From: Tessaracoccus aquimaris
Lineage (GTDB): Bacteria > Actinomycetota > Actinomycetes > Propionibacteriales > Propionibacteriaceae
DNA: 64,000 nt
Reading direction: 5' to 3'
Assembly: GCF_001997345.1 (NCBI RefSeq)
Contig: NZ_CP019606.1
Location: forward strand, 2,914,001-2,978,000
Shown here: positions 6,801 to 61,512 of the stretch, one piece after another
Position numbering within the stretch: position 1 is the stretch's first letter
Layout: each line of letters starts with the position of its first letter
Notes under the pieces: generated by a model
What the model was told of the DNA's origin: nothing
The model's database searches: none
Seen by the model: only the letters and a program-made list of their open reading frames with translations
Program-made: the position numbers and the translations under genes

Positions 6801-6948
6801 GATCGGTTGGTTCCTCCTGGGGGATGGGGGTGTCCTGATTGGGTAACGCGGGGGCCGACGCCCGATTCCGGGCATGCCAGGGCCAGGGTCGGTCGTGGGG
6901 GTCGATCCGTGACGGGATCGGGCACGGTGGGAGCCTGGGGCTCCCGTT

Positions 6949-6989
6949 CGGTCGCGGTCGCTCGTTCAGGAGCCGAGCGACCGCGACCG
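6949..6989 (-). terminator. strong hairpin after the solute-binding protein gene
   Basis: A perfect 16-bp inverted repeat (CGGTCGCGGTCGCTCG and its complement) around a 9-base loop, 15 bases past the stop of the binding-protein gene ending at 7004. Likely ends the transporter transcript and insulates the secreted-protein gene downstream. Confidence 0.75.
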
Positions 6990-7003
6990 GTCATGGGGTG
7001 GGG

Positions 7004-8065: not shown

Positions 8066-8119
8066 CTGTTTCTCCTAGTGGTGGGTGTTGACGTGGTCGT
8101 CGTTGACGGGGTGGTTGGG

Positions 8120-10950: not shown

Positions 10951-11045
10951 TGAAGCGCTCCACTCCACTTGAGGGTCGTGATCGGCGACCCGGCGTGCAG
11001 GGGCGAGGTGCCCTGAGGTCCGCTGAGCTGGTGAGGTGCCGACAC
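10947..11045 (-). CDS. possible 32-aa leader peptide upstream of the transporter ATPase
   Basis: Short frame starting at GTG 11045 with AAGGAGG a few bases upstream, the best ribosome site in this intergenic region. It ends in TGA that overlaps the GTG start of the ATPase gene by 4 bases, the usual sign of translational coupling in this genome. The peptide (VSAPHQLSGPQGT...KWSGALQ) has no recognisable motif. It may be a genuine small protein, a regulatory leader, or an N-terminal part of the ATPase gene whose frame was lost. Homologue conservation would decide. Confidence 0.4.
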   Translation of the reverse strand: MSAPHQLSGPQGTSPLHAGSPITTLKWSGALQ

Positions 11046-11155
11046 GGTTGACCCTCCTTGGTCTTCGGTTGGATGAATGGGGCAGTTCGTCCTGCCCGAC
11101 GTTCGATGACAGTACGCGTCGATCGCAGGCCTCCTCATTGGCTAGTTGGGCTCCC

Positions 11156-11169
11156 TGCTCATCTGAGCA
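11156..11169. promoter_or_regulatory. candidate operator TGCTCA-TC-TGAGCA
   Basis: Perfect 6-bp inverted repeat with a 2-base spacer in the 413-bp gap between the SorC-type regulator gene and the transporter operon, upstream of the small leader frame. Position and symmetry fit a binding site for the neighbouring regulator; this is inference. Confidence 0.35.
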
Positions 11170-11184
11170 ATAACTAATCGGTAA

Positions 11185-11208
11185 CGCCCGACCGGGTTGG
11201 GTCGGGCG
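11185..11208 (-). terminator. hairpin terminator candidate after the SorC-type regulator gene
   Basis: Perfect 9-bp stem CGCCCGACC / GGTCGGGCG with a 6-base loop, followed on the minus strand by TTACCGATTAGTTATT. Lies between the regulator gene and the transporter operon, so it probably separates the two transcripts. Confidence 0.5.
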
Positions 11209-11226
11209 CTCGGTGAGGGTCTGCGT

Positions 11227-11306
11227 TTGAGCATGTTTGGTTGCTCGTTGCTGATCGCGCCCTGTATGCACGATCAAATCCGCATCGAGTTACCAGACAT
11301 GCTCAA
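11227..11306. repeat. 80-bp palindromic repeat element, copy 2
   Basis: Same length as the copy at 2881-2960, in opposite orientation. The left arm TTGAGCATGTTTGGTTGCTC is identical, the right half shares CGATCA-x-ATC and CGAGTT-x-CC-x-x-ACATGCTCAA, while the central 18 bases differ. The two arms pair over about 21 bases with three mismatches. Located 58 bases beyond the stop of the SorC-type regulator gene. Confidence 0.8.
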
Positions 11307-11363
11307 GGTCGGGCCCACACGGAGCTCACCCCGGCTCGCAGTAGGGTCGGGGACGGCGCGGGT

Positions 11364-12401
11364 TCAGCCTCCGGCGCGCTCCGAGTGGTGGAACGCGGTC
11401 ACGGGCGGGAGGTCGAGCAGGGCGGACGCGAGTTCGACGTCGACGACCAGGTCCGTCAGGATCCCGGAGCGGCACACCGACCGCACGGCCTGCGCCTTCA
11501 ACGGGTCGGCAGCGGCCGCGATCACCCGTCCGATCCGCGCCAACTGGCGAGGGGTGATGTTGACGGTGTGCCGCCACAGGTTCGTGTCGACGGTGTGGCC
11601 GTCTGCGGCGAACAGCGAGCCCTGCACCTCGCCGACGGCGCCCGATTGGACGACGCGCTCGATGACTCTTTCGGGGACGGCGGAGTAGGCGATCGAGATG
11701 GGGGTCGGCACGACGGCGCCGATGCCGACGACGGCGGTGGTGAGGCGGTCGAAGTCGGCCACCACCGAGGCGACGTTCGGGTGCCTGCGCACCGCGACGG
11801 CCTGGCGCGCGTCGTCGATGAAGAAGGGCGCCCGGATCACGCGTGCGGCGCCCCCCGTCAGCGCCATGGTGCGGCGGGTCAGGGTCGCCGCGGAGTTGTT
11901 GACGTCGCCGCCGAACTTGCCCGAGAGCTGGACGATCTCGACGAGCGGCAGGTGCTCGAGGTCGTCGAACATGGTGTTGAGCGTGCGGCCCCAGCCGATG
12001 CCGAGGACCTCACCGTCGTCGAGTTGCTCCTGCAGGACGATGCCGGTGGCGCGCCCGACGGCGGCCCGCACGTTCTCGATCTCGCCGTAGACCTCGACGA
12101 CCGATGCGCTACGCAGGCCGAGGTGTTCGGCGAGTCGCTCGGACAGTTCGGGCAGCGGCAGGCCGCTGTTGACCGTGATGGAGACGATCCCGAGTTCGCG
12201 GGCCTCGTCGAGGTACCGGGCGACCTTGAACCGGGAAATGCCGAGTTCGTCTGCGACCTGGATCTTGGCCTTGCCCTCGATGTGGAAGGCCTTGGCGACC
12301 TGCATCAGGAGCCGCCGGTGCCCTGCCGCGTTGACGTCGCGGGAGCGGGGCCGGCCGATCGGAGCGAGCCGCTCATCCTCCGGGCTGGGACGGGTCGTCA
12401 C
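11364..12401 (-). CDS. SorC/DeoR-type sugar-binding transcriptional regulator, 345 aa
   Basis: N-terminal helix-turn-helix around residues 35-75 ('KIQVADELGISRFKVARYLDEA') followed by a SorC-type effector-binding domain (residues 80-335). That domain has the characteristic 'GIGWGRTLNTMFDDL', 'VVGIGAVVPTPISI' and 'VQGSLFAADGHTVD' segments and an Arg/Lys set that in relatives binds the phosphate of sugar phosphates. It lies directly upstream of, and in the same direction as, the transporter operon, which it most likely controls in response to a phosphorylated metabolite. This supports a phosphorylated substrate for the locus. Confidence 0.88.
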   Translation of the reverse strand: MTTRPSPEDERLAPIGRPRSRDVNAAGHRRLLMQVAKAFHIEGKAKIQVADELGISRFKVARYLDEARELGIVSITVNSGLPLPELSERLAEHLGLRSASVVEVYGEIENVRAAVGRATGIVLQEQLDDGEVLGIGWGRTLNTMFDDLEHLPLVEIVQLSGKFGGDVNNSAATLTRRTMALTGGAARVIRAPFFIDDARQAVAVRRHPNVASVVADFDRLTTAVVGIGAVVPTPISIAYSAVPERVIERVVQSGAVGEVQGSLFAADGHTVDTNLWRHTVNITPRQLARIGRVIAAAADPLKAQAVRSVCRSGILTDLVVDVELASALLDLPPVTAFHHSERAGG

Positions 12402-12646
12402 GGATCACGCCTTTCTGGCCTTTTCACCTGACGTCGATGATTCTGTGCACACTACCCCCTCCCCGCGGATGGCCGCCCACCCCTCCCCGCCACGCTCGGG
12501 GTACGACGTCAGAGCCAACACTCTTTCTGCCGTGTTCCGCGTCGTGATCGCGTCAGGTGAGCCGTGCGAACACCGCCGTGGCCCGAGCGCGGTCGCCGCC
12601 GATCCCTGTGCCGACGGATGCACGCCTCGTCGCCTACCGTTGCGGT

Positions 12647-13240
12647 GTGACCGACTTCACCCGTCTCGACGATGCCATCCTCACCACCCTTCGCGCGGGA
12701 GTGACAGAACTGCGCTCGGCCGAACCCACGCTGGCGCTCGTCGCGTGCGGGCTCGTCGAGGACCTCACGGGTTTCTTCATCGCGGGCGCCGACACCGAGT
12801 GGCTCGCCGAACTCGACGATTCTGGGGAACTCGCCTGGCTGCCCTCGGAGTGGCCGCTGAGCGCCGAAGACCCGACGGACACGCCGCCCGGTCGTGTGAC
12901 GAGTGCGATCTGGGAGCTCGTCGAGGACCTCCCCGACGACGATGGCGATGACTACTCGCCCACGTACGACGCGCTGCGCGTCGACTATGTCGACCGCATC
13001 GTGCGCGCGTTGCAGATCATGCGCGAGGCCGGCGAACTGAGGCGCGTCGATGGTGGCGAGCTGTGGGTCTGGCTGCACGCCGCCGACGCCTACGACGAAG
13101 ACCTCGACGATGTGACGTTCGCGCGCCTGCACGACGCCGAGACGGCCGCCGCCTTCGCGACCAGATTCGACGGCGGCCACGATGCACTCGTCGGGCGGCT
13201 CATCAACCGGCCCTCCTCACCCGAGCATCCGATCGGCTGA
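12647..13240 (+). CDS. DUF4303 domain-containing protein, 197 aa
   Basis: Acidic cytoplasmic protein. The opening 'FTRLDDAILTTLRAGVTEL' followed by 'TLALVACGLVEDLTGFFIAGADTEWLAEL' and the WxPSEWPL segment match the DUF4303 pattern; this family often accompanies immunity or polymorphic-toxin loci, but no toxin gene is nearby. I chose the GTG at 12647, where the family similarity begins; the frame is open for another 30 codons upstream with no better ribosome site. The preceding 245 bases (12402-12646) hold no other gene. Confidence 0.7.
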   Translation: MTDFTRLDDAILTTLRAGVTELRSAEPTLALVACGLVEDLTGFFIAGADTEWLAELDDSGELAWLPSEWPLSAEDPTDTPPGRVTSAIWELVEDLPDDDGDDYSPTYDALRVDYVDRIVRALQIMREAGELRRVDGGELWVWLHAADAYDEDLDDVTFARLHDAETAAAFATRFDGGHDALVGRLINRPSSPEHPIG

Positions 13241-13291
13241 CCTCACGTTCGGTTTCGGCGGATCGCCGAGACGCGGTTAGGGTGCTGAGGC

Positions 13292-13975
13292 ATGAGCACA
13301 CCTGGGTTTTCGGCCGTCCTGTTCGACTGCGACGGGATCCTGGTGAACTCGGAACCCATCACCAACTCGGTGCTGCGCGAGATGCTGCACGAACTCGGTT
13401 GGGAGATCTCCGAGGAGGACTGCATCCGCCACTTCGTGGGCACGTCGTTCATCGACGAGTGGGAGATCATCCACGAACACACCGGCTACCGCATCGACCA
13501 CGACTGGATCCTTGGCTTCCGGGAGCGACGCAACGCCGCCCTGGTCGCCCGGCTGGAGCCCGTTGCGGGCGCCGTCGACGCCGTCAGGAGCATCGCGGAG
13601 CGCTTCCCCGTGGCGTGCGTCTCGGGGGCGGACCGCGGCAAGATCGACATGCAGCTGGCGATGGCGGGGCTGACCGAAGTCTTCGGCGACCGCGTCTTCA
13701 GCGGCATGGAACTGCCGCGCTCGAAGCCGGCACCCGACGTGTACCTGGCCGCGGCCTCGGCGATGGGGATCGACCCGACGACGGCGGCGGTCGTCGAGGA
13801 CTCGTCGTCCGGCGTCCGTGCTGGTGTGGCGGCGGGTGCGACCGTGTTCGGTTACGCCCCCGGGGAGCCGACCTACCTCTCCCCCGACGAGCTGACGGCG
13901 CTCGGCGCGGCGGCCGTCTTCGACTCGATGGACGCGCTCCCAGGCCTGGTCTCCGTTGGTCGCCCGGCCGCGTAG
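13292..13975 (+). CDS. HAD hydrolase, beta-phosphoglucomutase-like subfamily, 227 aa
   Basis: Motif I 'LFDCDGILVNSEP', a helical cap from about residue 20 to 85, motif II 'VACVSGADR', motif III Lys in 'SKPAPDVYLAAA' and motif IV 'AVVEDSSSGVRAG'. These identify a group I HAD phosphatase of the PGMB/phosphatase YniC type, which removes phosphate from small sugar phosphates. It stands 51 bases after the DUF4303 gene on the same strand and may share its promoter. Confidence 0.88.
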   Translation: MSTPGFSAVLFDCDGILVNSEPITNSVLREMLHELGWEISEEDCIRHFVGTSFIDEWEIIHEHTGYRIDHDWILGFRERRNAALVARLEPVAGAVDAVRSIAERFPVACVSGADRGKIDMQLAMAGLTEVFGDRVFSGMELPRSKPAPDVYLAAASAMGIDPTTAAVVEDSSSGVRAGVAAGATVFGYAPGEPTYLSPDELTALGAAAVFDSMDALPGLVSVGRPAA

Positions 13976-14045
13976 CTCGCCCGCAGCCACGACGCCTGCC
14001 CCAAGGGGTAGGTGCCTTGCTAGGTGTACTGACCGGTCACGTTGA

Positions 14046-14573
14046 TCAGTCTGGATTCTCAAGGCGTCGCACGGTTTCGATGTGGTCCGCCAGTTCGCCG
14101 TCACTGAGGGGCGGCAGTCGGAGGAACCATCGGAAGAGGAGAGGAGCTAGCAGAAGCTCTGTGGCTTGTTCTGGATTGGCGAAGCCGTCTGCAGCGACCA
14201 GGCGGGCGAACTGCTGTTGCTGGGGCTGGAACAGCGCGGTGTGGAACTGATGGGCGATCGCCTCGTCGCTCTGGATCGCAGCGGTCAACATCCGCAGCAG
14301 TGAGGCTCGCGGTTCTGACACGAGCTCGGTGCTGGTTGCCTTCATGGCCCCAAACAGGTCCGGGTGGCTGACGAGGGGTTCAGCCGCGGCCGATTCCGCC
14401 GCCAGGGCGTCGAACAGGAGTGCATGGATCGAGGGCCATGTGCGGTAGAGCGTCTGTTTGCCGACACCAGCTTCGGTAGCGATGCCTTCCATGGTCAGGG
14501 CGTTCGGGCCGCCACGCTCGGCGAGGTGCAGGACGGCCGCGAACACACGCGCGGCGGTAGTGGGGCGGGCCAT
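14046..14573 (-). CDS. TetR/AcrR family transcriptional repressor, 175 aa
   Basis: N-terminal TetR DNA-binding domain: 'RVFAAVLHLAERGGPNALTMEGIATEAGVGKQTLYRTWPS' pattern (helix 1 to recognition helix, residues 9-48), then a helical ligand-binding domain of about 120 residues. Divergently transcribed from the SDR gene with a palindromic operator between them, so it very likely represses both. Ligand unknown. Confidence 0.92.
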   Translation of the reverse strand: MARPTTAARVFAAVLHLAERGGPNALTMEGIATEAGVGKQTLYRTWPSIHALLFDALAAESAAAEPLVSHPDLFGAMKATSTELVSEPRASLLRMLTAAIQSDEAIAHQFHTALFQPQQQQFARLVAADGFANPEQATELLLAPLLFRWFLRLPPLSDGELADHIETVRRLENPD

Positions 14574-14586
14574 GCCCTCAGTATAG

Positions 14587-14609
14587 AAACGAGACGAAGC
14601 GTCTCGTTT
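14587..14609. promoter_or_regulatory. TetR operator between divergent regulator and SDR genes
   Basis: Perfect 10-bp inverted repeat AAACGAGACG / CGTCTCGTTT with a 3-base spacer (AAG). AAACGAGACGnnnCGTCTCG symmetry of this kind is typical of TetR-family operators that repress a divergent SDR gene. It lies 13 bases from the regulator start and 17 bases from the SDR start. Confidence 0.8.
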
Positions 14610-14626
14610 GGTGGTTGACTGGGCCC

Positions 14627-15454
14627 ATGACGACAGCGAACACTTGGTTCATCACCGGCGCGAGCAGTGGTCTCGGCCTTTCCTTGACTCAGCGGGTGCT
14701 GGCCGCAGGCCATCGTGTCGTGGCCACGAGCCGCCGAGGTGCGCTGCCTGTGCAGCACCCGTCTCTGACCGTGTTGCGCCTGCACCCGGCCGATCGGGGT
14801 GAGTGCCGGCGAGCCGTCGAGGAAGTTTACGAGGTCGCAGGCCGTCTCGACGTCCTGGTGAACAACGCGGGCTACGGCCTCGTTGGCGCCGTCGAGGAGG
14901 TCAGCGAGGAGCAAGCGAGGGCGATCCTTGACGTCGATCTCCTGGGGCCCTTGTGGCTCACGCAGGCGGTGCTCCCGCTGATGCGCGCTCAGGGCAGGGG
15001 CCACATCGTGCAGATCTCCTCGACCGGCGGGGTAGGCGCCATGCCGATGCTCGGTCTCTACAACGCCGCAAAGTGGGGTCTTGAGGCCTTCACCGAGTCC
15101 TTGGCAGGCGAGGTCAGGTCCATGGGCGTGCGAGCCACCCTCGTCGAGATCGGCGCCATGGATACCCAGTGGGCGACCTCGGGGATGCAGTTCAGTGCTC
15201 CGCTTCCTGGCTACGACGAGTTGCGCCAGCGGCTCTTCGGAACCTCCGTCGTGCCGTGGCCGAGCGAGCCCGGGGCCACAGGAGGCGGCTCGACTCCGGA
15301 GGCCATAGCCGAGGCGATCCTTGCCCACGTGAACGCGGAAGAAGGGCCACTGCGACTGGTCCTCGGCGAAGGCGCCGCCGACCAGATCCGAATGGTCCTC
15401 GATCAACGCCAGCGCGACTATGCGCTTCAGCCGGGATTTCAGGCCGAGAGTTGA
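14627..15454 (+). CDS. short-chain dehydrogenase/reductase (SDR), 275 aa
   Basis: Classical SDR oxidoreductase. Cofactor motif 'FITGASSGLGLSL' at the N-terminus, 'LVNNAGYGL' near residue 83, catalytic Ser in 'VQISSTGGVG' and the 'YNAAK' Tyr/Lys pair. The Arg residues after the second strand ('TSRRG') suggest NADP(H). Substrate is unknown. Start taken at ATG 14627, close to the operator; translation may be leaderless since no good ribosome site precedes it. Expected to be induced when the divergent TetR protein is released. Confidence 0.9.
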   Translation: MTTANTWFITGASSGLGLSLTQRVLAAGHRVVATSRRGALPVQHPSLTVLRLHPADRGECRRAVEEVYEVAGRLDVLVNNAGYGLVGAVEEVSEEQARAILDVDLLGPLWLTQAVLPLMRAQGRGHIVQISSTGGVGAMPMLGLYNAAKWGLEAFTESLAGEVRSMGVRATLVEIGAMDTQWATSGMQFSAPLPGYDELRQRLFGTSVVPWPSEPGATGGGSTPEAIAEAILAHVNAEEGPLRLVLGEGAADQIRMVLDQRQRDYALQPGFQAES

Positions 15455-15521
15455 CCGGCGCTCTACGGCCGACTCCGCCCATCAGCCGCCGTTCTCACGG
15501 TTGACCAACGTCTCAGTACAG

Positions 15522-16310
15522 CTAGAGGCGGACGCCGATCTTCTCGAACGCCGTGCGGAAGATGGTGATGCCCTCGAGACCAGGGAACTTCTGAACCCGC
15601 TGATCGAGCTTGTCCAATTCCTCGCCGTGGTCCTCGAACAGGTGGCGCATCACATGCTTGATCTCGCCGTCGTCCATGATTCCCGAGCCGACCGGGTTCC
15701 ACACCTTCGTCATCACGAATCGCACGATCTTCTGGGCGCGGGTCGACTCCTCAAGCTTCGCCCTCGCCTGCGTCGTGTAGAACGCGACGTGCCTGGTCTC
15801 CTGCTTCGCGATCCGCTCCAGAAGCGGAGAAAGGACCGGGTGATGCTGCATGTCGGCCATCCGCCGGTAGGCCGCGACGGCCGACAGTTCGTTGGCCGCA
15901 CCCCACGTCATGTGGACGGCGATGAAGTCGTCGCCGACCAGGTTCGACCCGGTCGCCTGCTTCACCGGGCCCATCGCCAACTGCCAGCCCAGCTTGATCC
16001 GCTTTGCCTTCAACTCGTCGTAGTCGACGTGAATGCCGTGCTTCTTCAGCACCGCGGACAGCGCCTCGCCGTGCCAGAACTCCTCGCGGTTCCACGTCGT
16101 CATGAAGCCGCGCGCCTCGTCCTCGCGGTGCGACCTGGTGACGAGCAGGTCCCGCAGGTAGCAGGACGTGTGGTATTCGACGTCGCACATGTACCTCAGC
16201 GACCGCAGCGTCTCGGCATCAAGCGGCTGCTCGTCGAAGATGTCGAGGTCGAGGTCTTCCCACCGGACCCGGTCAGAGGTCTCGGCGTACTTTTCAAGGT
16301 CGAACGCCAC
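15522..16310 (-). CDS. ferritin-like diiron protein, acyl-ACP desaturase-like, 262 aa
   Basis: Helical protein with a full set of carboxylate/histidine diiron ligands: Glu in 'CDVEYHTS', the ExxH of 'REEFWHGEAL', Glu in 'AANELSAVAAY' and the second ExxH of 'AKQETRHVAFY'. This arrangement is seen in acyl-ACP desaturase-like and related ferritin-like oxygenases of actinobacteria. A redox role using O2 is inferred; the substrate is unknown. ATG at 16310 follows an AGGAA ribosome site. It overlaps the end of the related gene upstream by 17 bases, indicating one operon. Confidence 0.82.
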   Translation of the reverse strand: MAFDLEKYAETSDRVRWEDLDLDIFDEQPLDAETLRSLRYMCDVEYHTSCYLRDLLVTRSHREDEARGFMTTWNREEFWHGEALSAVLKKHGIHVDYDELKAKRIKLGWQLAMGPVKQATGSNLVGDDFIAVHMTWGAANELSAVAAYRRMADMQHHPVLSPLLERIAKQETRHVAFYTTQARAKLEESTRAQKIVRFVMTKVWNPVGSGIMDDGEIKHVMRHLFEDHGEELDKLDQRVQKFPGLEGITIFRTAFEKIGVRL

Positions 16311-19663: not shown

Positions 19664-19729
19664 GGCGGCCCGTCAAGATCGTCGCGCAGGCCGATGAACG
19701 CGAGGACGCGAAGGCGAAGACTTGTGGTC

Positions 19730-20059
19730 ATGCAACTTCTACTGGAACTGCCCCAGCACGGGGCTCACGCAATGGGTCCGATGCTCTTCGGTCTCATGAT
19801 GTTCAAGGCGCTGCTGTTCGGCCTCCTGATCTTCGCCGTCATCAAGTTGGTGAAGCATCGTCGCCTCGGCCCGGTCGGCTTCGCCCCACGCGGCGCAGGA
19901 CCCGCTGGCGGTCACCCGCACGGCTGGGCCGCGCACCGTCCCGCGGAGGACGCCGCCTTCGACACCCTGCGGATGAGGCTCGCCAACGGCGACATCACGC
20001 CGGAGGAGTACCTGGAACGCTCGTCGGTGCTGCGGACACCGCAGGAACCGCGCGAGTAA
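19730..20059 (+). CDS. small membrane protein with C-terminal SHOCT domain, 109 aa
   Basis: One hydrophobic helix (residues 18-40, 'MLFGLMMFKALLFGLLIFAV'), a basic and Gly/His-rich linker, then a SHOCT oligomerisation motif 'TLRMRLANGDITPEEYLER'. Similar small proteins sit next to two-component systems in actinobacteria; their function is not established. I chose ATG 19730; ATG 19694 in the same frame would add 12 basic residues. Followed 9 bases later by a second SHOCT protein. Confidence 0.7.
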   Translation: MQLLLELPQHGAHAMGPMLFGLMMFKALLFGLLIFAVIKLVKHRRLGPVGFAPRGAGPAGGHPHGWAAHRPAEDAAFDTLRMRLANGDITPEEYLERSSVLRTPQEPRE

Positions 20060-20068
20060 GGGTCAGCC

Positions 20069-20281
20069 ATGTTCTTCGTGATCGCGATCGCCGTGTTCCT
20101 CATCGCGCTGCAGCACCGAGGAAGCATCGGCCCCTTCCGCTGGCTGGGCACCCCGGTCGCGGCAGCGCCCCAGCCCACCGCCATCGACTCGGCCGAGGGC
20201 GTGCTCGCCCGACGCCTGGCCGACGGCGACCTCAGCCCCGACGAGTACCTGGAAAGGGCGGCCCTGCTGAAGGACCGCTGA
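20069..20281 (+). CDS. small membrane protein with SHOCT domain, 70 aa
   Basis: Short N-terminal hydrophobic helix (FFVIAIAVFLIAL) and a C-terminal SHOCT motif 'LARRLADGDLSPDEYLERAAL', clearly related to the preceding gene (tandem duplication in miniature). ATG with GGGTCAGCC upstream. A hairpin follows at 20298. Confidence 0.72.
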   Translation: MFFVIAIAVFLIALQHRGSIGPFRWLGTPVAAAPQPTAIDSAEGVLARRLADGDLSPDEYLERAALLKDR

Positions 20282-20323: not shown

Positions 20324-20425
20324 TGCTCTGCGTTCGGCGCAGCACTTCCCAACCCGAGCCGATCCCGGATCTGTCGGCGGCGGTCGGTACGGTGGTCCCC
20401 ACAGGTCGTCGAGGCAGGGAGGGTC

Positions 20426-22135
20426 ATGGCCGAGCAGCGTGACACCGTAGGACTGGTGGCCGGGACGAGCGACTCGACGCCGCTGAAGTTCAGCGTCGCC
20501 GTCGGCCCGGATGCCTACCTTCAACTCGACGACGTCGTCACCACCGAGCGCGTCGTCCCCGGCGTCGGCCCCGTCCGTACTTCCGGCGTCGTCACCCAGG
20601 TCGTCGCGCGCCACGAGGGCGCCAGCTTCGGCTCAGACGCGTTCCTGATCGCCGACGGAGTGCTTCCCGCCATCACGCAGGAAATCGCAGAGGTCACCAC
20701 CACGCGGGTCGACCCAGAGGTCTACGTCCCGCCGCTGCCGGGCGTCGCGGCGACCCGCGCGACGGGCGCCCAACGCGACCGCGCGCTCTACTTCGACTCG
20801 ATGGACAAGAAGGTCGTCGTTGGCCTCGGCAGGGACGGCGCCCCCGTCTACGTCAACCTCGACTTCCTCGACGGCACCCGCGGCGCGCACGTGTCCATCT
20901 CCGGCATCTCCGGGGTCGCGACCAAGACCAGCTTCGCGCTGTTCCTGCTCCACTCGCTGTTCGCCTCCAAGGTGCTCCGCGAGCGAGCGCTTTCGGCGAA
21001 GGCGCTGATCTTCGCCGTCAAGGGCGAAGACCTGATGTTCCTCGACAAGCCCAACGCAAAGCTCGACGACTCCATGCGCGCGCAGTACGCGCGGCTCGGG
21101 CTGCCCGCCACGCCCTTCGACTCGGTGCAGTTCTTCGCTCCCCCGACCCCCGGCGACACCACCGGACGCCCGCACGTGGCGGGCCGCACCAGCGGCGTCG
21201 ATGCGTTCTGGTGGACGCTCGCCGAGTTCTGCCAGAAGGAACTGCTCCCCTACGTCTTCGCCGACGCCGAGGACGACCGCAACCAGTACACGCTTGTCAT
21301 CCACCAGGTCGCGGCCCAACTGCGCCGCGAGGCCAAGGCAGCGGGGGTCGACGGCGCCGTCTCGATTGGCGGCACCCAGCTTCGCACCTACGCCGAGTTG
21401 GTCGAGTTCATCGCCGACCGCCTGCAGGACGATACCACCAAGGCCGACTGGGCTGGCGCGGCCACGACGGCGGGCTCGGTCAACGCGTTCATCCGACGAC
21501 TGCGCTCCTCACTGAAGGCTCTCGGCCCCATCATCCGCGGCGACCTCGCGTCGCGCCCCGGCCAGCGCCAGGTCTCCACCGCGAACAGCCGGGTCACGGT
21601 CGTCGACCTGCACAACCTGCCCGACCGGGCCCAACGCTTCGTGGTCGGCGTCGTGCTGCGCGCCGAGACGGAGGCGAAGGAGCGCGCCGGCGCAGGCGGG
21701 CTGCTCTTCACGATGCTCGACGAGTTGAACAAGCACGCGCCCCGCGAGGGCAACTCCCCCATCAAGGAGGTGCTGCTCGACATCGCCGAGCGAGGCCGCT
21801 CGCTCGGCATCATCCTGATCGGCGCGCAGCAGACCGCCTCCGAGGTCGAGCGCCGGATCGTCTCGAACTCGTCGATCCGCATCGTCGGCCGCCTCGACCC
21901 TGCCGAGGCGGGCCGCCCCGAGTACGGCTTCCTTCCCACCTCGCAGCGGCAGCGCGCCACCCTCGCCAAGCCGGGAGCGATGTTCGTGGCGCAGCCCGAA
22001 CTGCCGGTTCCGCTCGCGGTCGAGTTCCCGTTCCCCGCCTGGGCGACGCGCCAGTCGGAGATGGCGCCCGAGTCGAGCGGGCCGATCAACATCATGTCCC
22101 GGATGGCGCGCGACGCCGACCCCGCGCCCTTCTAG
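20426..22135 (+). CDS. HerA-like ATPase/DNA translocase, first gene of the DNA-repair operon, 569 aa
   Basis: N-terminal beta-barrel-like region (residues 1-110) then an FtsK/HerA-type ATPase. The P-loop reads 'ISGISGVATKTS', with Thr where Walker A normally has Gly before Lys. Walker B is 'LLFTMLDELNKHAP', and 'GIILIGAQQTASEVERRI' plus 'RIVGRLDPAEA' are the sensor and arginine-finger-like parts seen in HerA and VirB4. In archaea HerA hexamers pump DNA and work with NurA nuclease and Mre11-Rad50; the same partners follow here in tight order. GTCATG start with AGGGAGG upstream. Probably the first gene of a four-gene transcript. Confidence 0.85.
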   Translation: MAEQRDTVGLVAGTSDSTPLKFSVAVGPDAYLQLDDVVTTERVVPGVGPVRTSGVVTQVVARHEGASFGSDAFLIADGVLPAITQEIAEVTTTRVDPEVYVPPLPGVAATRATGAQRDRALYFDSMDKKVVVGLGRDGAPVYVNLDFLDGTRGAHVSISGISGVATKTSFALFLLHSLFASKVLRERALSAKALIFAVKGEDLMFLDKPNAKLDDSMRAQYARLGLPATPFDSVQFFAPPTPGDTTGRPHVAGRTSGVDAFWWTLAEFCQKELLPYVFADAEDDRNQYTLVIHQVAAQLRREAKAAGVDGAVSIGGTQLRTYAELVEFIADRLQDDTTKADWAGAATTAGSVNAFIRRLRSSLKALGPIIRGDLASRPGQRQVSTANSRVTVVDLHNLPDRAQRFVVGVVLRAETEAKERAGAGGLLFTMLDELNKHAPREGNSPIKEVLLDIAERGRSLGIILIGAQQTASEVERRIVSNSSIRIVGRLDPAEAGRPEYGFLPTSQRQRATLAKPGAMFVAQPELPVPLAVEFPFPAWATRQSEMAPESSGPINIMSRMARDADPAPF

Positions 22136-22142
22136 GAGACCG

Positions 22143-23297
22143 GTGAAGTTCCTCCACACCGCCGACTGGCACGTCGGCAAGACCCTCAAGGGCCGCAGCC
22201 GACTGGAAGAGCAGCAGGCGGTCCTCGCCGAGATCATCGACATCGCCGTCCGGGAACAGGTCGACGCGGTGCTGATCGCGGGCGACCTCTACGACAGCGC
22301 CGCCCCCAACGCAGAGGCGCAGCGACTCGTCAACGGCGCCCTCCTCAAGCTGGTCGGCGAGGGCATCGAGGTCGTCGTGATCGCGGGCAACCACGACCAC
22401 GCGCGCACCTTCGAGGCGCTGCGCCAACTGATGGCGGCGGCTGGCATCGAGTACACCGGTCGGGTCCGCGCGGCTGACGATGGCGGCGTGCACCGCTTCA
22501 CGGCCAGGTCGACCGGGGAGGAGGCGGTCGTCGCACTCGTCCCCTTCATCACCCGGCGCCACATCATCGGCACCGAGGAGATCGTCACCGGCACGCCCTC
22601 GGAGAACGCGGGCCAGTACGACCAGTCGGTCCGCGACATCATCGCAGCCCTTGCGACATCGTTCGGGCCTGACACCGTCAACATCGTGATGGCGCACCTG
22701 ACGTGCACCGGCGGGGTGATGGGCGGCGGCGAGCGCGAGGCCCAGTCGATCTTCGAGTATCACGTGTCCGCCTCCGCGTTTCCGATCACCGCGCACTACG
22801 TCGCTCTTGGCCACCTGCACCGCCGCCAGCAGATCCCGGCCCCCGCACCCGTGCACTACTCAGGCGCGCCGCTGGCGGTCGACTTCGGCGAGCAGGAGAA
22901 CACGCCAGTGGTGTGTCTCGTCGAGGCCACCCCGTCGACGCCCGCCCGCGTGACCGACATCCCCATCACCGCGGGCAAGCGGCTGCGGACGGTCTCCGGC
23001 ACGGTCGAGCAACTGCTCGCCTCCGTCGAGGACTACGGCCAGGACTACCTGCGCGTCGTCGTCGAGGAACGCACCAGGGCGGGCCTGCGCGACGAGGTCC
23101 TCGACGCGCTGCCCAACGCGCTGGAGGTGCGCATCCACCCCGACTTCGCCCAGACCCAGCCGCAGCACACGGCGCAGAACACCAGCCGCTCCCCGCGCGA
23201 CCTGTTCGCCGCCTACTGCGAGGAGACGGGCATCGATGATCCTCGCCTGCTGGCGCTGTTCTCCGACCTGCTCGACGAGACGACGGCGGCCTCCTGA
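22143..23297 (+). CDS. sbcD: exonuclease SbcD/Mre11 family, 384 aa
   Basis: Calcineurin-type metallophosphoesterase with all five motifs: 'TADWHVG' (DxH), 'IAGDLYDSA' (GDxxD), 'IAGNHDHAR' (GNHD), 'MAHLT' and 'VALGHLHRR' (GHxH). These ligate two manganese ions for nuclease activity on DNA ends and hairpins. The C-terminal part (after residue 270) is the capping and SbcC-binding region. Ends in TGATG shared with the SbcC start, so the two subunits are translationally coupled. Acts as the nuclease of the SbcCD/Mre11-Rad50 complex. Confidence 0.95.
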   Translation: MKFLHTADWHVGKTLKGRSRLEEQQAVLAEIIDIAVREQVDAVLIAGDLYDSAAPNAEAQRLVNGALLKLVGEGIEVVVIAGNHDHARTFEALRQLMAAAGIEYTGRVRAADDGGVHRFTARSTGEEAVVALVPFITRRHIIGTEEIVTGTPSENAGQYDQSVRDIIAALATSFGPDTVNIVMAHLTCTGGVMGGGEREAQSIFEYHVSASAFPITAHYVALGHLHRRQQIPAPAPVHYSGAPLAVDFGEQENTPVVCLVEATPSTPARVTDIPITAGKRLRTVSGTVEQLLASVEDYGQDYLRVVVEERTRAGLRDEVLDALPNALEVRIHPDFAQTQPQHTAQNTSRSPRDLFAAYCEETGIDDPRLLALFSDLLDETTAAS

Positions 23298-26200
23298 TGC
23301 GCCCCGTCCGCCTGGAGATGAACGGTTTCGCGTCGTTCCGCACCGAGACCACCGTCGACTTCGACGGCGCAGACTACTTCGCGCTCGTCGGCCCGACCGG
23401 TGCTGGCAAGTCGACCGTGATCGACGCCATGGTGTTCGCCCTCTACGGCTCCGCGCCGCGCTGGGGTCGCGCCACCGCCATCCAGTACGCGCTGGCCCCC
23501 ACGGCCACCTCCGCCACAGTCCGGCTCGTCTTCGACGTCGGCGCCGAGCGCTACCAGGTGGCGCGCGAGGTGCGCCGTGTCGGCCAGTCCATCCAGCAGC
23601 GCAGCGCCGTCCTGGAACGCTTCGACGACCCGGCCAAGACCGCCGCCACCAGCGACGAGGTCGACGTGGTCGCCTCCGAGGTGCGCGACGTGACGCCCGC
23701 CGTCGAGGAACTCCTCGGGCTGTCCTTCGACGACTTCACCAAGGCCGTCGTGCTCCCGCAGGGCCGGTTCGCCGAGTTCCTCAACGCGACGGTCGGCGAG
23801 CGTCAGGACATCCTCCTCAAACTGCTCGGTGCCCACCAGTACGACATCGTGATGCGCGCCGCAGGCTCGCGCCGAGCCGCCGCGAACTCCGACGTCCTCA
23901 CAGCGGAAGCGCGGATCGGCGACCTCGGGGGCGCGACCCAGGAGGCGATCGACGAGGCACGCGCCCGCGTCGAAGACTTCCGACTCCTCGACGACCGGAT
24001 CACCGCGCTGCAGGCCTCGCTCGACGGCGCCAGGAGCACGGCGCACAAGGCGTCCGACGCGCTCACCTCTGCCGCTGCCGACGTGACGCGACTCTCCGCC
24101 GTCCGGATCCCAGACGGCCTGACGGGCCTTGCGGCCCGGTCGACCCAGGTGCGCGCCGAGGCCGAACGGCTGACCTCCGAGGCCACCGCGGCCGAGGCCA
24201 CCTATGGCGAGGCCCGCGCGGCGCTCGAGGCTGGCGGGAACCGCTCACAGTTGGAGCGCCTGCGCGACCAGTGGGTCGAACTGGCGACCCTCACAGCGAC
24301 ACTGCCCGACCTGCAGACCCAGTCCGCCGAGGCACAGTCCCGCGCCACCGAGGCAGCCGTCGCACGGTCGGCGGCAGAGGCGGCGTGGTCCGAGGCGTTC
24401 GCCGCCGAAGCGGAGGCCGGTCAGGCGCTCGCCGCGGCCGGCTCCGCCGTCCAGGCGGCGGAGGATCGGCGGGCGCGGATCGCCGCCGTCGAGGCCCCTG
24501 ACGGGCTCGACGACCTGGCCCAGCGACTCGACGCCGCCTCCGACGCGGTGCGCGCCGCGGGCGACGCGTTCGACGCCGCCGAGTCTGCCGAGGACGACGC
24601 CCGCGAGGCGCTGCGCACGGCAGGTGAACCCGTCGACCTGTCCCAGACGATCGCCCGGTGCGACGCGGCCATCGCGGCGTCGGCAAGGGTCGACGACCTG
24701 ACCGCCCGAGCCGGCGCCGCGGGGATCGCTCTGGGCGACACCCACGTGATGGCGCAGGCCGCCGAGGCCGACCTGACGGCGGCGCGCGCCCGCAACGACG
24801 AGGCACGCGTCCTCGTCACGGCCGCCGGGCTGAGGGCAGGGCTCAAGGTCGGCCACGACTGCCCGGTCTGCACGGTGCCCGTCGCGACCCTCCCCGACCC
24901 GATCGACGCGGGCGAGGCCGACGCAGCCGCGGGGCTGCTCCGCCAGGCCGACCTCGCGGCGCGCACCGCCCGCGAGGCGGTGACCCGCGCCGAATCCGAG
25001 GTCGCGGCCCTCTCCCGGACGCTCGCCGAGGCCCGCGCCCAACTCGCCAACCTCACACCGTCGGGGACAGACCCCGCCGAGGCACGAGCCGACGCCGTGG
25101 CCGGGCTGGCCAAGGTCGACGCCGCGCGCGCACGACTCGAGGCGGCCCAGGCCGATCGATCGACCGCCCGCGCGTCCCTCGAGGACACCAAGCGCCGCGC
25201 CGCGACCCTCGACGAGGAGCGCAAGGCGGCGCTCACGGCGCTCCGCGAGGCGCGATCCGCCCTCCTGCCGCTCGGGTCACCGGTCGCCGAGTCCGACTCG
25301 GTGCAGGACTCCTGGCGCGAACTGACCTCTTGGGCGAGCGGCGCCCTAACCGACCTCGACGCCACCTCGCTTCCCCGCGTCCGCGCGGACCACGAGGAGG
25401 CCGGGCGAGCGCACTCCGAGGCGACCATGGCGCTCGCCGCGGCCAAGGACGCGCGTGAGAGCGCCTCCGCCGCTGCCGACGGCGCCCGGTCGGCCGTGCT
25501 GCGCGCCGAGTCCACGCTGACCAGAGTCACGGAACGCGGCGAGGACCTCCGTCGCACCCTCGACGGAGCGCCGCCTGCCGCGCAGGTCTCGGGAGACCTC
25601 GACGCGCTGGCCGCCCTCGAACGACAGGAGCGGTCGGCGCTGGCCGCCTTCCAGGCGGCGGGCCAGTCACGCAACGCCGCCGCGCAGGCCGAGCGCGACC
25701 TGCGCGCCGAACTGTCGGCCGCCGACCGATTGCTCCGCGAGACGCGCGACCCATTGGTCCCGCTCGGCGCCCCCTCCGTCGACACGTCCGACCTGCCCGC
25801 GGCGTGGTCTGCCTTGGCCGACTGGGCCAAGACGGCCACGACGGCGGCCGAGGAGAGGCTGCTGGCCGCCCACACGGCCTCCGAGGAGGCGACCAAGGGC
25901 GTCACCGAGGCCGAGGCCGCCATTGTCGCCGCGGCCACGGACTGGGGGCTAGAGGTAGCCACCGCCGCGGGCGTCGCGTCGGCCCTCGCGGCGGAGTCGG
26001 CCCGTGCCGCCGACCGTGTCACCAATCTGGAACGCGACCTTGCCCGGTTGGCGACCCTGCACGAGACGCGCGCAGAGGCCGAGGAACGCAGACAGGTCGC
26101 GGGCATGCTCGCCGAGCACCTGAGCGCCAAGAAGTTCCAACGCTGGCTGGCAGGCGCGGCCCTCGACGTGCTGGTCGAGGCAGCATCGTCCTCGCTGCTC

Positions 26201-26590
26201 GAACTCTCGGGTGGGCAGTTCACCCTCGCGCACGAGAAGGGCGAGTTCTTCGTCATCGACCACGCCGACGCCGAGGCAAAGCGCTCCGTCCGCACGCTTT
26301 CCGGCGGCGAGACCTTCCAGGCGAGCCTCGCTCTGGCGCTGGCGCTGTCCGCCGAACTGTCGTCGATGTCGTCCAACGCGGCCAAGCTCGACTCGATCTT
26401 CCTCGACGAGGGCTTCGGCTCGCTCGACCCCGACAGCCTCGAGGTGGTCGCCGTCACGCTCGAACGCCTGGCCGCAGGCGACCGGATGGTGGGCGTCGTG
26501 ACCCACGTGCAGGGCCTCGCCGAACGGATCCCGACCCGATTCGTCGTCACGCGCACCTCGCGCTCGTCGACCGTGGTGCGGGAGGGCTGA
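23297..26590 (+). CDS. sbcC: SbcC/Rad50 family ATPase with zinc hook, 1097 aa
   Basis: SMC-like ATPase split by a long coiled coil. N-terminal Walker A 'VGPTGAGKST' (residues 33-42) and Q-loop 'KAVVLPQGRFAEFL'. Two heptad-rich, alanine-rich arms flank a central zinc hook 'CPVC' near residue 523. The C-terminal signature is 'RTLSGGETFQASLALALALS' and Walker B 'SIFLDEGFGSLD'. ATP binding clamps DNA and controls the SbcD nuclease. The arms are strongly Ala/Arg/Glu-rich, as expected in high-GC bacteria. The gene shares single bases with both neighbours (TGATG), indicating one coupled transcript. Confidence 0.95.
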   Translation: MRPVRLEMNGFASFRTETTVDFDGADYFALVGPTGAGKSTVIDAMVFALYGSAPRWGRATAIQYALAPTATSATVRLVFDVGAERYQVAREVRRVGQSIQQRSAVLERFDDPAKTAATSDEVDVVASEVRDVTPAVEELLGLSFDDFTKAVVLPQGRFAEFLNATVGERQDILLKLLGAHQYDIVMRAAGSRRAAANSDVLTAEARIGDLGGATQEAIDEARARVEDFRLLDDRITALQASLDGARSTAHKASDALTSAAADVTRLSAVRIPDGLTGLAARSTQVRAEAERLTSEATAAEATYGEARAALEAGGNRSQLERLRDQWVELATLTATLPDLQTQSAEAQSRATEAAVARSAAEAAWSEAFAAEAEAGQALAAAGSAVQAAEDRRARIAAVEAPDGLDDLAQRLDAASDAVRAAGDAFDAAESAEDDAREALRTAGEPVDLSQTIARCDAAIAASARVDDLTARAGAAGIALGDTHVMAQAAEADLTAARARNDEARVLVTAAGLRAGLKVGHDCPVCTVPVATLPDPIDAGEADAAAGLLRQADLAARTAREAVTRAESEVAALSRTLAEARAQLANLTPSGTDPAEARADAVAGLAKVDAARARLEAAQADRSTARASLEDTKRRAATLDEERKAALTALREARSALLPLGSPVAESDSVQDSWRELTSWASGALTDLDATSLPRVRADHEEAGRAHSEATMALAAAKDARESASAAADGARSAVLRAESTLTRVTERGEDLRRTLDGAPPAAQVSGDLDALAALERQERSALAAFQAAGQSRNAAAQAERDLRAELSAADRLLRETRDPLVPLGAPSVDTSDLPAAWSALADWAKTATTAAEERLLAAHTASEEATKGVTEAEAAIVAAATDWGLEVATAAGVASALAAESARAADRVTNLERDLARLATLHETRAEAEERRQVAGMLAEHLSAKKFQRWLAGAALDVLVEAASSSLLELSGGQFTLAHEKGEFFVIDHADAEAKRSVRTLSGGETFQASLALALALSAELSSMSSNAAKLDSIFLDEGFGSLDPDSLEVVAVTLERLAAGDRMVGVVTHVQGLAERIPTRFVVTRTSRSSTVVREG

Positions 26591-27540
26591 TGCAGTACTC
26601 GGTGGACGGATGGGCACCTGACTACGGCTCAAGCTTGCAGGAGGTCGAGGAACTGGCGGAGTCGGTCGCCCAACTCGACGCCAGCGTCGAGGTCGCCCTC
26701 GAGCGCTGGGCCGCGGTCCCTGCGCAGCCCGTGGCGGTGCCCGAGACGATCCTGTTCGTCGACGGCGTTCGTCGCGTCGAGGCCCGGCTGTGGATCTCGG
26801 AGGACGACGGCGACGCCGCGCCCGGGCTGTGCGCCTCCTACGCCGCGGGAGTGGTTCGCTCCACCAGGAAGGCGGCCACCGTCGAGGTCGCCGAGGTGCG
26901 CCGCGCGCTGCTCAGCACCTCCGAGGACGCCGCCGACATCGTCACCCGCCTCGGCACCTGGACGGCGGTGCACGCCAAGCCCGACCCCTCCAAGCAGGTC
27001 TTCGACGTGCTCTCGCTCGCGCTGCAACAGAAACTGGCCGAGTTGGAGATCATCTGCGCGGCGAACGCCCGCGCCGCGACCGGTTCCGTCGACGATGACC
27101 TGCTCGTGATCGACGGCCCCCTGCACGGTCGCACCAAGGTGCCCCGGGCGATCGGGGCGATCAAGTCGCACCAATCCGCCTACCTGCCCGCCGACCTGAA
27201 TCGGGTGGTCGGCACGCTCGAAGCCGGCGAGCGGACGCCGATCTTCCTGCTGGGCACCACCTGGGAGCGCTACTCCTGGTACCTGCGACTGCCCGGCGGA
27301 GGCGGCTCGCCGTGGGCGGGCATCGTCCGCGTCGAGTGCTCCCCCGAACTGCCGGTCGAGGACGCGGTCGCGCTCGCCTCACTGTCCCAGGCCGTGTTGC
27401 CTCGCTACGCGTCGGAAGCCTTCAAGGACCCGCGGGCCCCGCAGAACCTGTACCCGATCAGCGGCTTGGAGAAGACGCTGCGCCACCGCCTCGGCGACCC
27501 GGCCCTGCTCCGACGCGCGCTGATCTCCGCTCCCCGATAG
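26590..27540 (+). CDS. NurA-like 5'-3' nuclease, 316 aa
   Basis: RNase H-like nuclease of the NurA type: first catalytic Asp in 'ILFVDGVRRVEARL' (about residue 56), second in 'LLVIDGPLHG' (about residue 177). A conserved Lys follows in 'GAIKSHQSAYL', and the C-terminal 'NLYPISGLEKTLRHRLGDPALL' corresponds to the NurA 'YP...L..A' motif. In archaea NurA is driven by HerA and resects DNA ends after Mre11-Rad50 opens them; gene order here implies the same partnership. It starts at the ATG sharing one base with the SbcC stop. The 108 bases after it hold no recognisable gene. Confidence 0.8.
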   Translation: MQYSVDGWAPDYGSSLQEVEELAESVAQLDASVEVALERWAAVPAQPVAVPETILFVDGVRRVEARLWISEDDGDAAPGLCASYAAGVVRSTRKAATVEVAEVRRALLSTSEDAADIVTRLGTWTAVHAKPDPSKQVFDVLSLALQQKLAELEIICAANARAATGSVDDDLLVIDGPLHGRTKVPRAIGAIKSHQSAYLPADLNRVVGTLEAGERTPIFLLGTTWERYSWYLRLPGGGGSPWAGIVRVECSPELPVEDAVALASLSQAVLPRYASEAFKDPRAPQNLYPISGLEKTLRHRLGDPALLRRALISAPR

Positions 27541-27648: not shown

Positions 27649-28122
27649 CTAGAACTCCACCGCGTCCCGCAGGATGTCTGCGTCAATCCCTTGCCTCAAA
27701 CCTCCGTATGTCACGAGGTCCACCGGGCGGCCAAGAGTCGAGGAGAGTCGGTCCTGAAGGCCGACGATGTCGCCGATGGTCGCCCCGGTCGGCGGTTGCA
27801 CGAGGAGGTCGATGTCCGACTCGGTCGTGGCCTCGCCTCGTGCCACCGATCCGAAGACCGCCAGCCTTCCGAACCCGTAGGCAGCAGCGAGATCGACCAG
27901 TACGGGGCCTGCCGCCTCGACCGCGTCGCGAGGGTGTGCGTCGGAGACGGATTCTGCGACCTTGAGTTGTTGGCTCACCGCGGGTTGGCTGATTCCCAAC
28001 TCGTCGGCGACCTCCCGCTGAGAGCGCCCCTCAGCCACCATGGCGCGGAGGCTGTAGGCGCGCCTGAGCCGCGCGATCTCCTCAAGGTGACGCGCGGCCC
28101 GATACTCCCCCAGAAGAGCCAT
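27649..28122 (-). CDS. HTH plus nucleotidyltransferase (MNT-type) protein, 157 aa
   Basis: N-terminal helix-turn-helix 'REVADELGISQPAVSQQLKVAE' (residues 36-57) fused to a minimal nucleotidyltransferase domain with 'VFGSVARGEATTESDIDLLV': the GS motif and the two Asp residues needed for metal-dependent nucleotide transfer. MNT domains usually act as antitoxins that AMPylate a HEPN (HepT) RNase toxin encoded next to them. No HEPN gene is recognisable on either side here, so this may be an orphan or an autonomous regulator. Its ATG is preceded by a TTATGG context with a weak ribosome site. Confidence 0.78.
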   Translation of the reverse strand: MALLGEYRAARHLEEIARLRRAYSLRAMVAEGRSQREVADELGISQPAVSQQLKVAESVSDAHPRDAVEAAGPVLVDLAAAYGFGRLAVFGSVARGEATTESDIDLLVQPPTGATIGDIVGLQDRLSSTLGRPVDLVTYGGLRQGIDADILRDAVEF

Positions 28123-35414: not shown

Positions 35415-37100
35415 ATGGCGCCGCTGCTGTATCCCAAGGACCCCCAGTTCGAGACAGAATCGGAGCGGGCTGTGTGGACACGACTACGGGATACTCTGCG
35501 GCCCGATGACGCGCTGATCGCCAACTACCGCCTCACCGACGCGCGCAAGGACCACGAGGCCGACCTGATCGCCGTGCTTCCCGGCGTGGGGGTGATCGTC
35601 ATCGAGGTCAAGGGCGCGGGCACCAAGTGCCGCGACGGGCAGTGGTACATCTGGCGCGAGCGGGAGGGACGCGACGTGCCGATCGACCCGGTGGGCCAGG
35701 CTCGGGACGCCCGCTACGCCGTCCGCGACTACATTGAGGGCGACCCGCTCTGGAAGGCCTCCTCACACGGTCGGATCCGGTCGGCCCACACGGTCGTGGC
35801 CCCATTCACGACGCTCGACGAGGCGTTCCACCTGCCCGACTGCCCGCGGTGGATGATCCACGACTCGACCGACCAGGACGACATCGCGAAACGGATCGCC
35901 GGGGTGGCCCGAGAGACGATCAAGGCCCCGGACGCCGATGCCTGCGAGCTGATCGTCGAGATCCTGACGAGCAAGGGGCGCCGGACGGCGCCGGATGTCG
36001 AGGGCGAGTCGGCCGAGCGGCAGGAACGCGCCGACCGACTGACGCAGGAGCAGTCCCTGATTCTGGACGTCACGAGGCTGCTGCGGCGCGTCGAGGTCCG
36101 CGGTGGGGCGGGCAGCGGCAAGACCGTCCTCGCACTCACCCAGGCACGCCAACTGGCACAGGGTCGCACTGGACGAAAGGCCGAGCGCGTCGCGCTGCTG
36201 TGCTACTCACTCGGCCTGGCCAGCCACTTTCGACGCGAGGTCGCCGGGTGGAACTACAAGCAGCGCCCAGCGTTCGTCGGCACCTTCGAGGCGCTCGCCA
36301 ACTTGTGGGGAATCGAGTCGGGTTCGCGTGACGACCCCAACTTCTGGGAGGTCCAACTCCCACTCCTGATGTCCGAGCGTGCGGCGCAACTTCCCCCGGG
36401 CGAGCGGTTCGACGCGTTCGTCGTCGACGAGGCGCAGGACTTCGCAGAGAGTTGGTGGTCACCACTGCTCGCGGCGCTGCGCGACGAGGCCGACGGCGGG
36501 TTGTACCTCTACTCCGACGCGAACCAGCGACTGTTCCAGCGGTTCGGGAACCCGCCCGTGCCGCTCGTGCCCCTGATGCTGGATCACAACCTCCGAAACA
36601 CCAGACAGATCGCCGAGGTCTTCCGCCCGCTCGCACCGTCGCGGATGCGTCTGGAGGGCGGAGACGGGCCCGAGGTGCACTACGTGCCTGCCTCCGTCGA
36701 CGACGCGATGGACGTCGCCGACGATCAGGTCGAGGCGCTGCTCGACGAGGGCTGGTCGCCGGGCAGCATCGCGCTGCTCACGACCGGGCGCCGGCATCCA
36801 GAACAGGCGTCGCGTCAGGAGCACGGCGGCCAGGACGGCTACTGGGAGACATTCGACGACCCCGACCTCGTCTTCTACGGCCATGTGCTCGGCTTCAAGG
36901 GCCTCGAACGGCGGGCCATCGTGCTGTGCGTGAACGAGGACGGCACCAAGGACCGGTTCAGGGAGCGCATCTACGTGGGGCTGTCCCGGGCGACCGACCG
37001 ACTGATCGTCGTCGGGGACCCGGACGCCATCGCCCGCTCTGACGCGGAGGTCGTCAAGGCGCTGCGGCGAGGCGCTCAGCCTGCGGCCTCCACCACCTGA
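35415..37100 (+). CDS. NERD nuclease-domain plus UvrD-like helicase protein, 561 aa
   Basis: N-terminal NERD (nuclease-related) domain: 'HEADLIAVLPGVGVIVIEVKG' supplies the D...ExK restriction-endonuclease-type residues (about residues 50-67). A superfamily 1 helicase core follows from residue 205: Walker A 'RGGAGSGKTV', motif II 'FVVDEAQDFAE', motif III 'YLYSDANQ', motif IV 'LDHNLRNTRQIAEVF' and motif VI 'IYVGLSRATDRLIVVG'. Such single-gene fusions are linked to DNA repair or to phage defence; the role here is not shown. Divergent from the galactosidase gene and convergent with the MFS gene, overlapping its end by 25 bases. Confidence 0.88.
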   Translation: MAPLLYPKDPQFETESERAVWTRLRDTLRPDDALIANYRLTDARKDHEADLIAVLPGVGVIVIEVKGAGTKCRDGQWYIWREREGRDVPIDPVGQARDARYAVRDYIEGDPLWKASSHGRIRSAHTVVAPFTTLDEAFHLPDCPRWMIHDSTDQDDIAKRIAGVARETIKAPDADACELIVEILTSKGRRTAPDVEGESAERQERADRLTQEQSLILDVTRLLRRVEVRGGAGSGKTVLALTQARQLAQGRTGRKAERVALLCYSLGLASHFRREVAGWNYKQRPAFVGTFEALANLWGIESGSRDDPNFWEVQLPLLMSERAAQLPPGERFDAFVVDEAQDFAESWWSPLLAALRDEADGGLYLYSDANQRLFQRFGNPPVPLVPLMLDHNLRNTRQIAEVFRPLAPSRMRLEGGDGPEVHYVPASVDDAMDVADDQVEALLDEGWSPGSIALLTTGRRHPEQASRQEHGGQDGYWETFDDPDLVFYGHVLGFKGLERRAIVLCVNEDGTKDRFRERIYVGLSRATDRLIVVGDPDAIARSDAEVVKALRRGAQPAASTT

Positions 37101-61260: not shown

Positions 61261-61512
61261 TCAGCGCGACGTCTGCCTGGGCCGTCTCCGCTGGCCCTTC
61301 ACGATGTCGAACGCACGGAGGCCTATCGCGATCGTCGGCAGGCCGGTGCCGAGCAACGCGAGGCTCCTCAGGATGCTGAGCACGGCCGTGGTGAACCCGG
61401 GTGTGGGCGCTGGTTGGTCGGGGCTTGATGATCAGGCGAGCTAGCAGTCGGACAAGGAATGCTTGTCAGACCCCTCCTCTACCGTGAAGCACAGACCGGT
61501 AAGGAGGCCACC

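Follow-up and report, generated by a model that had tools for sequence, protein, structure and literature searches.

The stretch of DNA analysed here (the window) covers 64,000 nt of the Tessaracoccus aquimaris genome, a single contig of 3.93 Mb (NZ_CP019606.1, positions 2,914,001–2,978,000, forward strand); the closest named relatives among the matches listed belong to Tessaracoccus. Between positions 20426 and 27540 it carries four genes on the + strand: herA (20426–22135), for a Deinococcus-type HerA, a hexameric double-stranded DNA translocase; sbcD (22143–23297), for a Mre11-like nuclease; sbcC (23297–26590), for a Rad50-like ATPase with a CPVC zinc hook at residues 522–525; and nurA (26590–27540), for a bacterial-type nuclease of the RNase H fold. 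Only 7 nt separate herA from sbcD, and sbcD/sbcC and sbcC/nurA overlap by one base each. A sequence-only reading of the window had proposed these four coupled genes, and PDB profiles, folds, residues, motifs and the one-base overlaps confirm that they are real and correctly identified. To that reading we add a PafBC-type damage promoter of the LexA/RecA-independent type, TGTCGG-N10-TACGGT at 20372–20393 (+), 32 nt upstream of the herA ATG, and a second gene order, with NurA first, in other genomes.

HerA and NurA can be placed firmly because of their PDB profiles, folds and active-site residues, despite both lying below the Pfam cut-offs in the profile check that the sequence-only reading had called for: HerA reaches 12.7 of 23.2 bits for PF01935 (DUF87), on which we claim no membership, and NurA 16.3 of 21 bits for PF09376, whose NurA label some close relatives bear. 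HerA matches its PDB profile with an E-value of 2.8e-191 and structure 7wrw in Foldseek with a template modelling score of 0.86, and NurA likewise has PDB profile and NurA fold matches. Both resemble the HerA-NurA pair of Deinococcus radiodurans (PDB 7f6d, 7wrw, 7wrx), whose HerA (drHerA) is 47% identical in the fold alignment and whose NurA (drNurA) is 25% identical. Residues were mapped to these proteins by hand and counted over 96 complete four-gene modules from homologous loci (91 distinct HerA). The Walker A residues K175/T176, catalytic D220 and Walker B D487/E488 of drHerA correspond to K167/T168, D202 and D432/E433 in the window; K167, D202, D432 and E433 are kept in 96/96 modules and T168 in 94/96 (serine in the other two). 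The DNA-translocation residues R495 and R552 of drHerA correspond to R440 (93/96 modules) and R497 (88/96), and the window has both. The idea that the odd P-loop, GISGVATKTS, might render HerA inert was dropped because drHerA shares it and uses K175/T176 to contact nucleotide and metal. HerA scores 640 bits against drHerA and 19 bits against the HerA proteins of defence systems; matches to mad8 and mad3 were rejected as kinship with MADS and read as generic ATPase similarity, control proteins matching the same models. As for NurA, residues D53, K201 and R309, essential in drNurA, are D58, K192 and R282 here and are kept in all 96 modules; with W8 they represent the published sites, and E153 and D175 are invariant as well. 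The catalytic and DNA-contact residues mutated in the D. radiodurans pair are conserved.

SbcD matches TIGR00619 (E 6e-59) and shows the motifs DWH, AGDLYD, GNHD and GHLH, while SbcC passes the cut-offs of Pfam AAA_23 and SbcC_Walker_B and falls short of that of NCBIfam SbcC (TIGR00618, 242.6 of 478.5 bits). Over the 96 modules DxH was counted in 94, GNHD, GHxH and CxxC in 96 each, and the strict GD pattern in only 46. The earlier remark that bacterial SbcCD usually stands alone is misleading for this locus, as the operon SbcD is the only one over the TIGR00619 cut-off in the T. aquimaris genome. Within the genus, 8 of 36 genomes have an SbcD over the cut-off, five of them module carriers; among 31 module genomes 28 have one, and 27 of these have none outside the module (the exception is G432; G205 carries two modules). 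That the operon might be an extra copy beside a housekeeping SbcCD was rejected, the other two SbcC Walker-B matches of the genome being a TIGR02680 protein and an SMC-like protein whose score is far under that for SbcC. By this measure the module usually appears to supply the only SbcD of its host.

The LexA/RecA-independent, PafBC-dependent promoter consensus is reported as tTGTCRgtg-8nt-TannnT (PMC5656591). The site upstream of herA matches the core TGTCRG-N10-TANNNT exactly and has two mismatches to the long consensus. The core precedes 26 of the 98 homologous operons with upstream sequence available, where 0.27 would be expected from its density elsewhere in the same loci; spacers of 4–9 and 11–18 nt gave no operon upstream with the motif, only the spacer of 10 giving matches, and 2 of 298 control genes carried it. 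Once near-identical upstreams were removed, it remained in 24/76 HerA-first and 0/14 NurA-first operons. Three LexA patterns were tested and matched none of 103 operon upstreams, on which ground LexA control was rejected. The T. aquimaris genome contains 26 matches to the motif, versus 3 to the reversed pattern. Nine of the 26 downstream open reading frames (ORFs) were scanned with Pfam: recA lies 53 nt and uvrB 7 nt beyond the motif, three others encode DnaX, a DUF222-HNH protein and an AAA protein, and four gave no match; a PafBC regulon comprising recA, uvrB, dnaX and the DUF222-HNH gene, among others, may thus be readable in the genus. A second exact motif in the window, at 61464–61485 (+), has no clear downstream gene. 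PafB and PafC are encoded side by side, followed by a small ORF and TatA (genome contig 683060–686260), and match chains of PafBC structures (E 2e-43 and 6.6e-43); single-stranded DNA (ssDNA) is reported to activate PafBC (PMC11804915). The operon therefore looks like one placed behind a PafBC-type, LexA-independent damage promoter, which would make it damage-inducible. This promoter is new here: among the literature matches listed, none deals with the operon in actinobacteria or with its PafBC promoter. Iyer et al. 2004 may have noticed the operon earlier.

The gene order extends well beyond one genome. We examined 136 loci, made up of the best 80 of 407 from a genome scan together with plasmids, a phylum set, a family set and the window (some fetched twice). 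Complete modules were present in 103, of which 89 read HerA-SbcD-SbcC-NurA and 14 NurA-HerA-SbcD-SbcC; many of the remaining 33 are cut by contig ends. HerA was detected in 11 of 198 Propionibacteriaceae genomes at E≤1e-50 (own included), a patchy distribution, in 21/394 class genomes at E≤1e-100, and in 141/396 phylum genomes at E≤1e-3, 74 of them at E≤1e-100 by a hand count among the matches listed; NurA was found in 5 of 60 genomes, that of T. aquimaris among them. From the phylum we sampled 40 loci, hand-picked from the matches listed and not random. All four genes stand on one strand in 25 (14 HerA-first, 11 NurA-first); five others are truncated where a contig ends, one has no detected NurA, one has HerA alone, in two SbcD stands 11–14 kb from HerA, and six come from a divergent family whose partner matches are weak. 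HerA also appears, rarely, on plasmids (6 of 72,556 records, of which one measures 11.85 Mb), with the NurA-first set on plasmids of Sphaerospermopsis, Nostoc, Aulosira and Candidatus Chlorohelix and the HerA-first set on a Streptomyces plasmid. The four-gene set thus recurs through the Actinomycetota, with carriers among mesophiles that can be cultured (Amycolatopsis, Pseudonocardia and Streptomyces, for example), and is also borne by cyanobacterial plasmids and one from a chloroflexotan. Searches of phages and viral contigs with NurA gave no match, and a phage origin of the operon was rejected on that result.

How the operon relates to known systems can be judged from several comparisons. 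Its likeness to the archaeal end-resection gene set, pointed out in the sequence-only reading, holds: the archaeal herA-mre11-rad50-nurA operon (Sulfolobus and others) has the same four functions, and the order in the window is the one listed in a Sulfolobus islandicus paper. The window HerA and NurA, however, are of bacterial type (archaeal HerA is 12–14% identical), and the set is accessory here, whereas the S. islandicus herA, nurA, mre11 and rad50 genes are reported to be essential. Unlike the D. radiodurans pair, HerA and NurA of the window share an operon with SbcD and SbcC under a PafBC-type promoter; D. radiodurans is described as being without Mre11-Rad50 (PMC12977600). A bacterial HerA gene followed by sbcD and sbcC has been published in Oceanithermus profundus (hepA-sbcD-sbcC, PMC5448004), where it is described for one genome, whereas here there are many actinobacterial lineages, two orders and a damage promoter; this distinction is by description only. 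Standalone SbcCD has the same SbcD and SbcC families, which are here linked to HerA-NurA. The HerA defence systems (SIR2-HerA, HerA-DUF4297) and TdpAB share the HerA motor fold, and TdpB resembles NurA, but they are remote in sequence, and the operon encodes SbcD, SbcC and NurA, not SIR2 or DUF4297; our literature search found no TdpAB paper. HerA and NurA homologues in Actinobacteria and other phyla were already named in a review (PMC8708640), and the view that bacterial herA-nurA belongs to Deinococcus-Thermus, having come there from archaea by transfer (PMC12977600), looks too narrow.

Pairwise distances of the four proteins correlate with r of 0.89–0.93 over 55 loci, values reached in 0 of 500 shuffles and to which shared ancestry contributes; as far as sequence comparison tells, the set is one accessory unit. 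A HerA tree, obtained by a quick method (55 rows, midpoint root, the careful search unfinished), needs 2 changes of gene order versus a mean of 12.7 after shuffling. Under this root most NurA-first rows are basal. The HerA-first rows make up a single group, into which a long-branched cyanobacterial locus (L092) also falls; without that row the HerA-first order would have one origin. From this pattern we tentatively read the order in the window as convergent with the S. islandicus listing, the HerA-first order having arisen within bacteria. Propionibacteriaceae rows are scattered over the tree, which suggests repeated transfer.

Ku is encoded in 6 of the 40 phylum-sample loci (three families), directly adjoining the operon in two, and an ATP-dependent ligase in five of these six and one further locus of the sample; both were found in 0/20 control regions, and the ligase in 2/80 loci of the related set. 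In two loci of different families, L158 (G205, 5985–15194) and L163 (G151, 6868–15581), Ku lies on one flank of the module, with a DNA ligase beside it in L158, and a conserved protein on the other (weak alpha/beta-hydrolase match in L158). A PADLOC scan (E≤1e-10) of 147 neighbours from 25 loci returned no family matching more than one neighbour; 60 families matched somewhere among them, versus 11 among 150 control proteins, and a follow-up of 10 proteins traced 47 family matches to just four neighbour proteins from three loci. Single modules do have defence-type genes nearby: a SIR2-HerA pair directly downstream of the NurA-HerA-SbcD-SbcC module in L155 (14662–18146, G432); L159 has a DNA methyltransferase, and both L170 and the window (35415–37100, +; PADLOC models RTasNERD-Hel and C3a187) have a NERD-UvrD helicase. 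Relatives of the window helicase also occur close to the operon in G020 and, split into pieces, in G008. No defence gene was seen directly beside the window operon, whose flanks were partly scanned. Two short tandem proteins are encoded just upstream of the promoter (19694–20059 and 20069–20281, +), of which the first matches SHOCT weakly, and a helix-turn-helix plus nucleotidyltransferase gene without an obvious partner lies directly downstream of nurA on the opposite strand (27649–28122, −).

The sequence-only reading had set the operon next to RecBCD/AdnAB. The genome does encode RecB, RecC, RecD and a UvrD/PDDEXK pair, which we take to be AdnAB-like (its matches name UvrD/PcrA-type helicases), but these lie about 1.4–1.9 Mb away. 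The recC and recD frames look split (genome contig 1486000–1494300), through a real break, an assembly error or a simple ORF caller. A TIGR02677/02678/02680 gene set (1181000–1189000) and a separate 1117-aa SMC-like protein (3064933–3068286) are presumably Wadjet-like.

Taken together, the operon is probably a DNA-damage-induced unit for resection of double-strand-break ends, a reading that we favour because of the PafBC-type promoter and because a few families have Ku and ligase next to the module, and which upholds the dedicated resection pathway of the sequence-only reading, itself partly supported overall. Damage-made ssDNA would activate PafBC and switch on the promoter; SbcC-SbcD, by analogy with the Mre11-Rad50 family, would open blocked or hairpinned ends; and a HerA hexamer would pump duplex into a NurA dimer, which, judging by the conserved residues, would cut the 5′ strand and leave a 3′ tail for RecA. 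Duplex pumping, 5′-strand cutting and a 3′ tail have been demonstrated by others with the D. radiodurans pair in vitro; for the window we infer 3′-tail formation and the working of SbcCD and HerA-NurA as a joint machine. The set often brings its host the only SbcCD. A bolder version, which we regard as possible though doubtful, is that of a portable resection machine gated by ssDNA: on sensing ssDNA, PafBC induces the enzymes that make more of it, this positive feedback commits damaged cells to RecA-dependent repair, and the machine moves as one cassette that gives SbcCD-less actinobacteria their only Mre11-Rad50, with the archaeal order reached independently.

The role of HerA-NurA, in resection or against viruses, is disputed in the literature (PMC9960219, PMC12977600), and several points weigh against resection here. 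The genome already has RecBCD and AdnAB-like enzymes; the exact motif precedes only 26/84 HerA-first and 0/14 NurA-first operons; Ku is found in 0/80 related-set, 0/10 family-set and 0/7 plasmid loci; and three full-length loci (L034, L051, L058) have no HerA in the 3–4.5 kb upstream of SbcD. A D. radiodurans nurA-herA double deletion is reported to be about 10-fold more resistant to ultraviolet light and mitomycin C (PMC9960219), and the authors of work on Thermococcus kodakarensis doubt resection and propose an antiviral role (PMC12977600). Both the patchy, partly plasmid-borne distribution and the defence-type genes near some copies (L155, L159, L170 and the window) would also suit the anti-phage role that the sequence-only reading had offered, namely a dedicated anti-phage or anti-plasmid system in which HerA-NurA and SbcCD degrade incoming DNA that is linear or unusual, the damage promoter serving only to link them to ssDNA caused by infection. 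We consider such a system unlikely, given that no PADLOC family recurs among the neighbours (although more families match there than among the control proteins), that HerA is much nearer to drHerA than to the defence proteins, and that the operon shares its PafBC-type promoter with recA and uvrB. One damage-induced nuclease could serve both repair and defence.

Less probable again is that two independent tools are merely co-transcribed, SbcCD for hairpins or replication debris and HerA-NurA for something else, with no joint machine. In Thermus nurA-hepA is described as standing apart from SbcCD (PMC5448004), and NurA of Sulfolobus acidocaldarius was, as reported, not recovered with Rad50, Mre11 and HerA (PMC2288612); yet all four genes are kept together in two different orders, their proteins co-vary, and archaeal HerA is reported to bind Mre11-Rad50 directly (PMC2288612). 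It would be surprising indeed if the operon were a decaying, horizontally acquired relic of little function. NurA and HerA are frame-broken in G008 and HerA is matched in two pieces in G540, but the window copy is intact with its catalytic residues kept, and in four genomes of the genus, T. aquimaris among them, the HerA match and the NurA match are each unbroken, with no stops.

Genetics is hampered in S. islandicus because the genes are essential; here the set as a whole is accessory, its hosts include mesophiles that can be cultured, and it carries a damage-linked regulatory signature, making deletion, induction and joint-complex tests feasible. The disputed role of the set, in repair or in antiviral defence, thereby becomes testable in ordinary bacteria.

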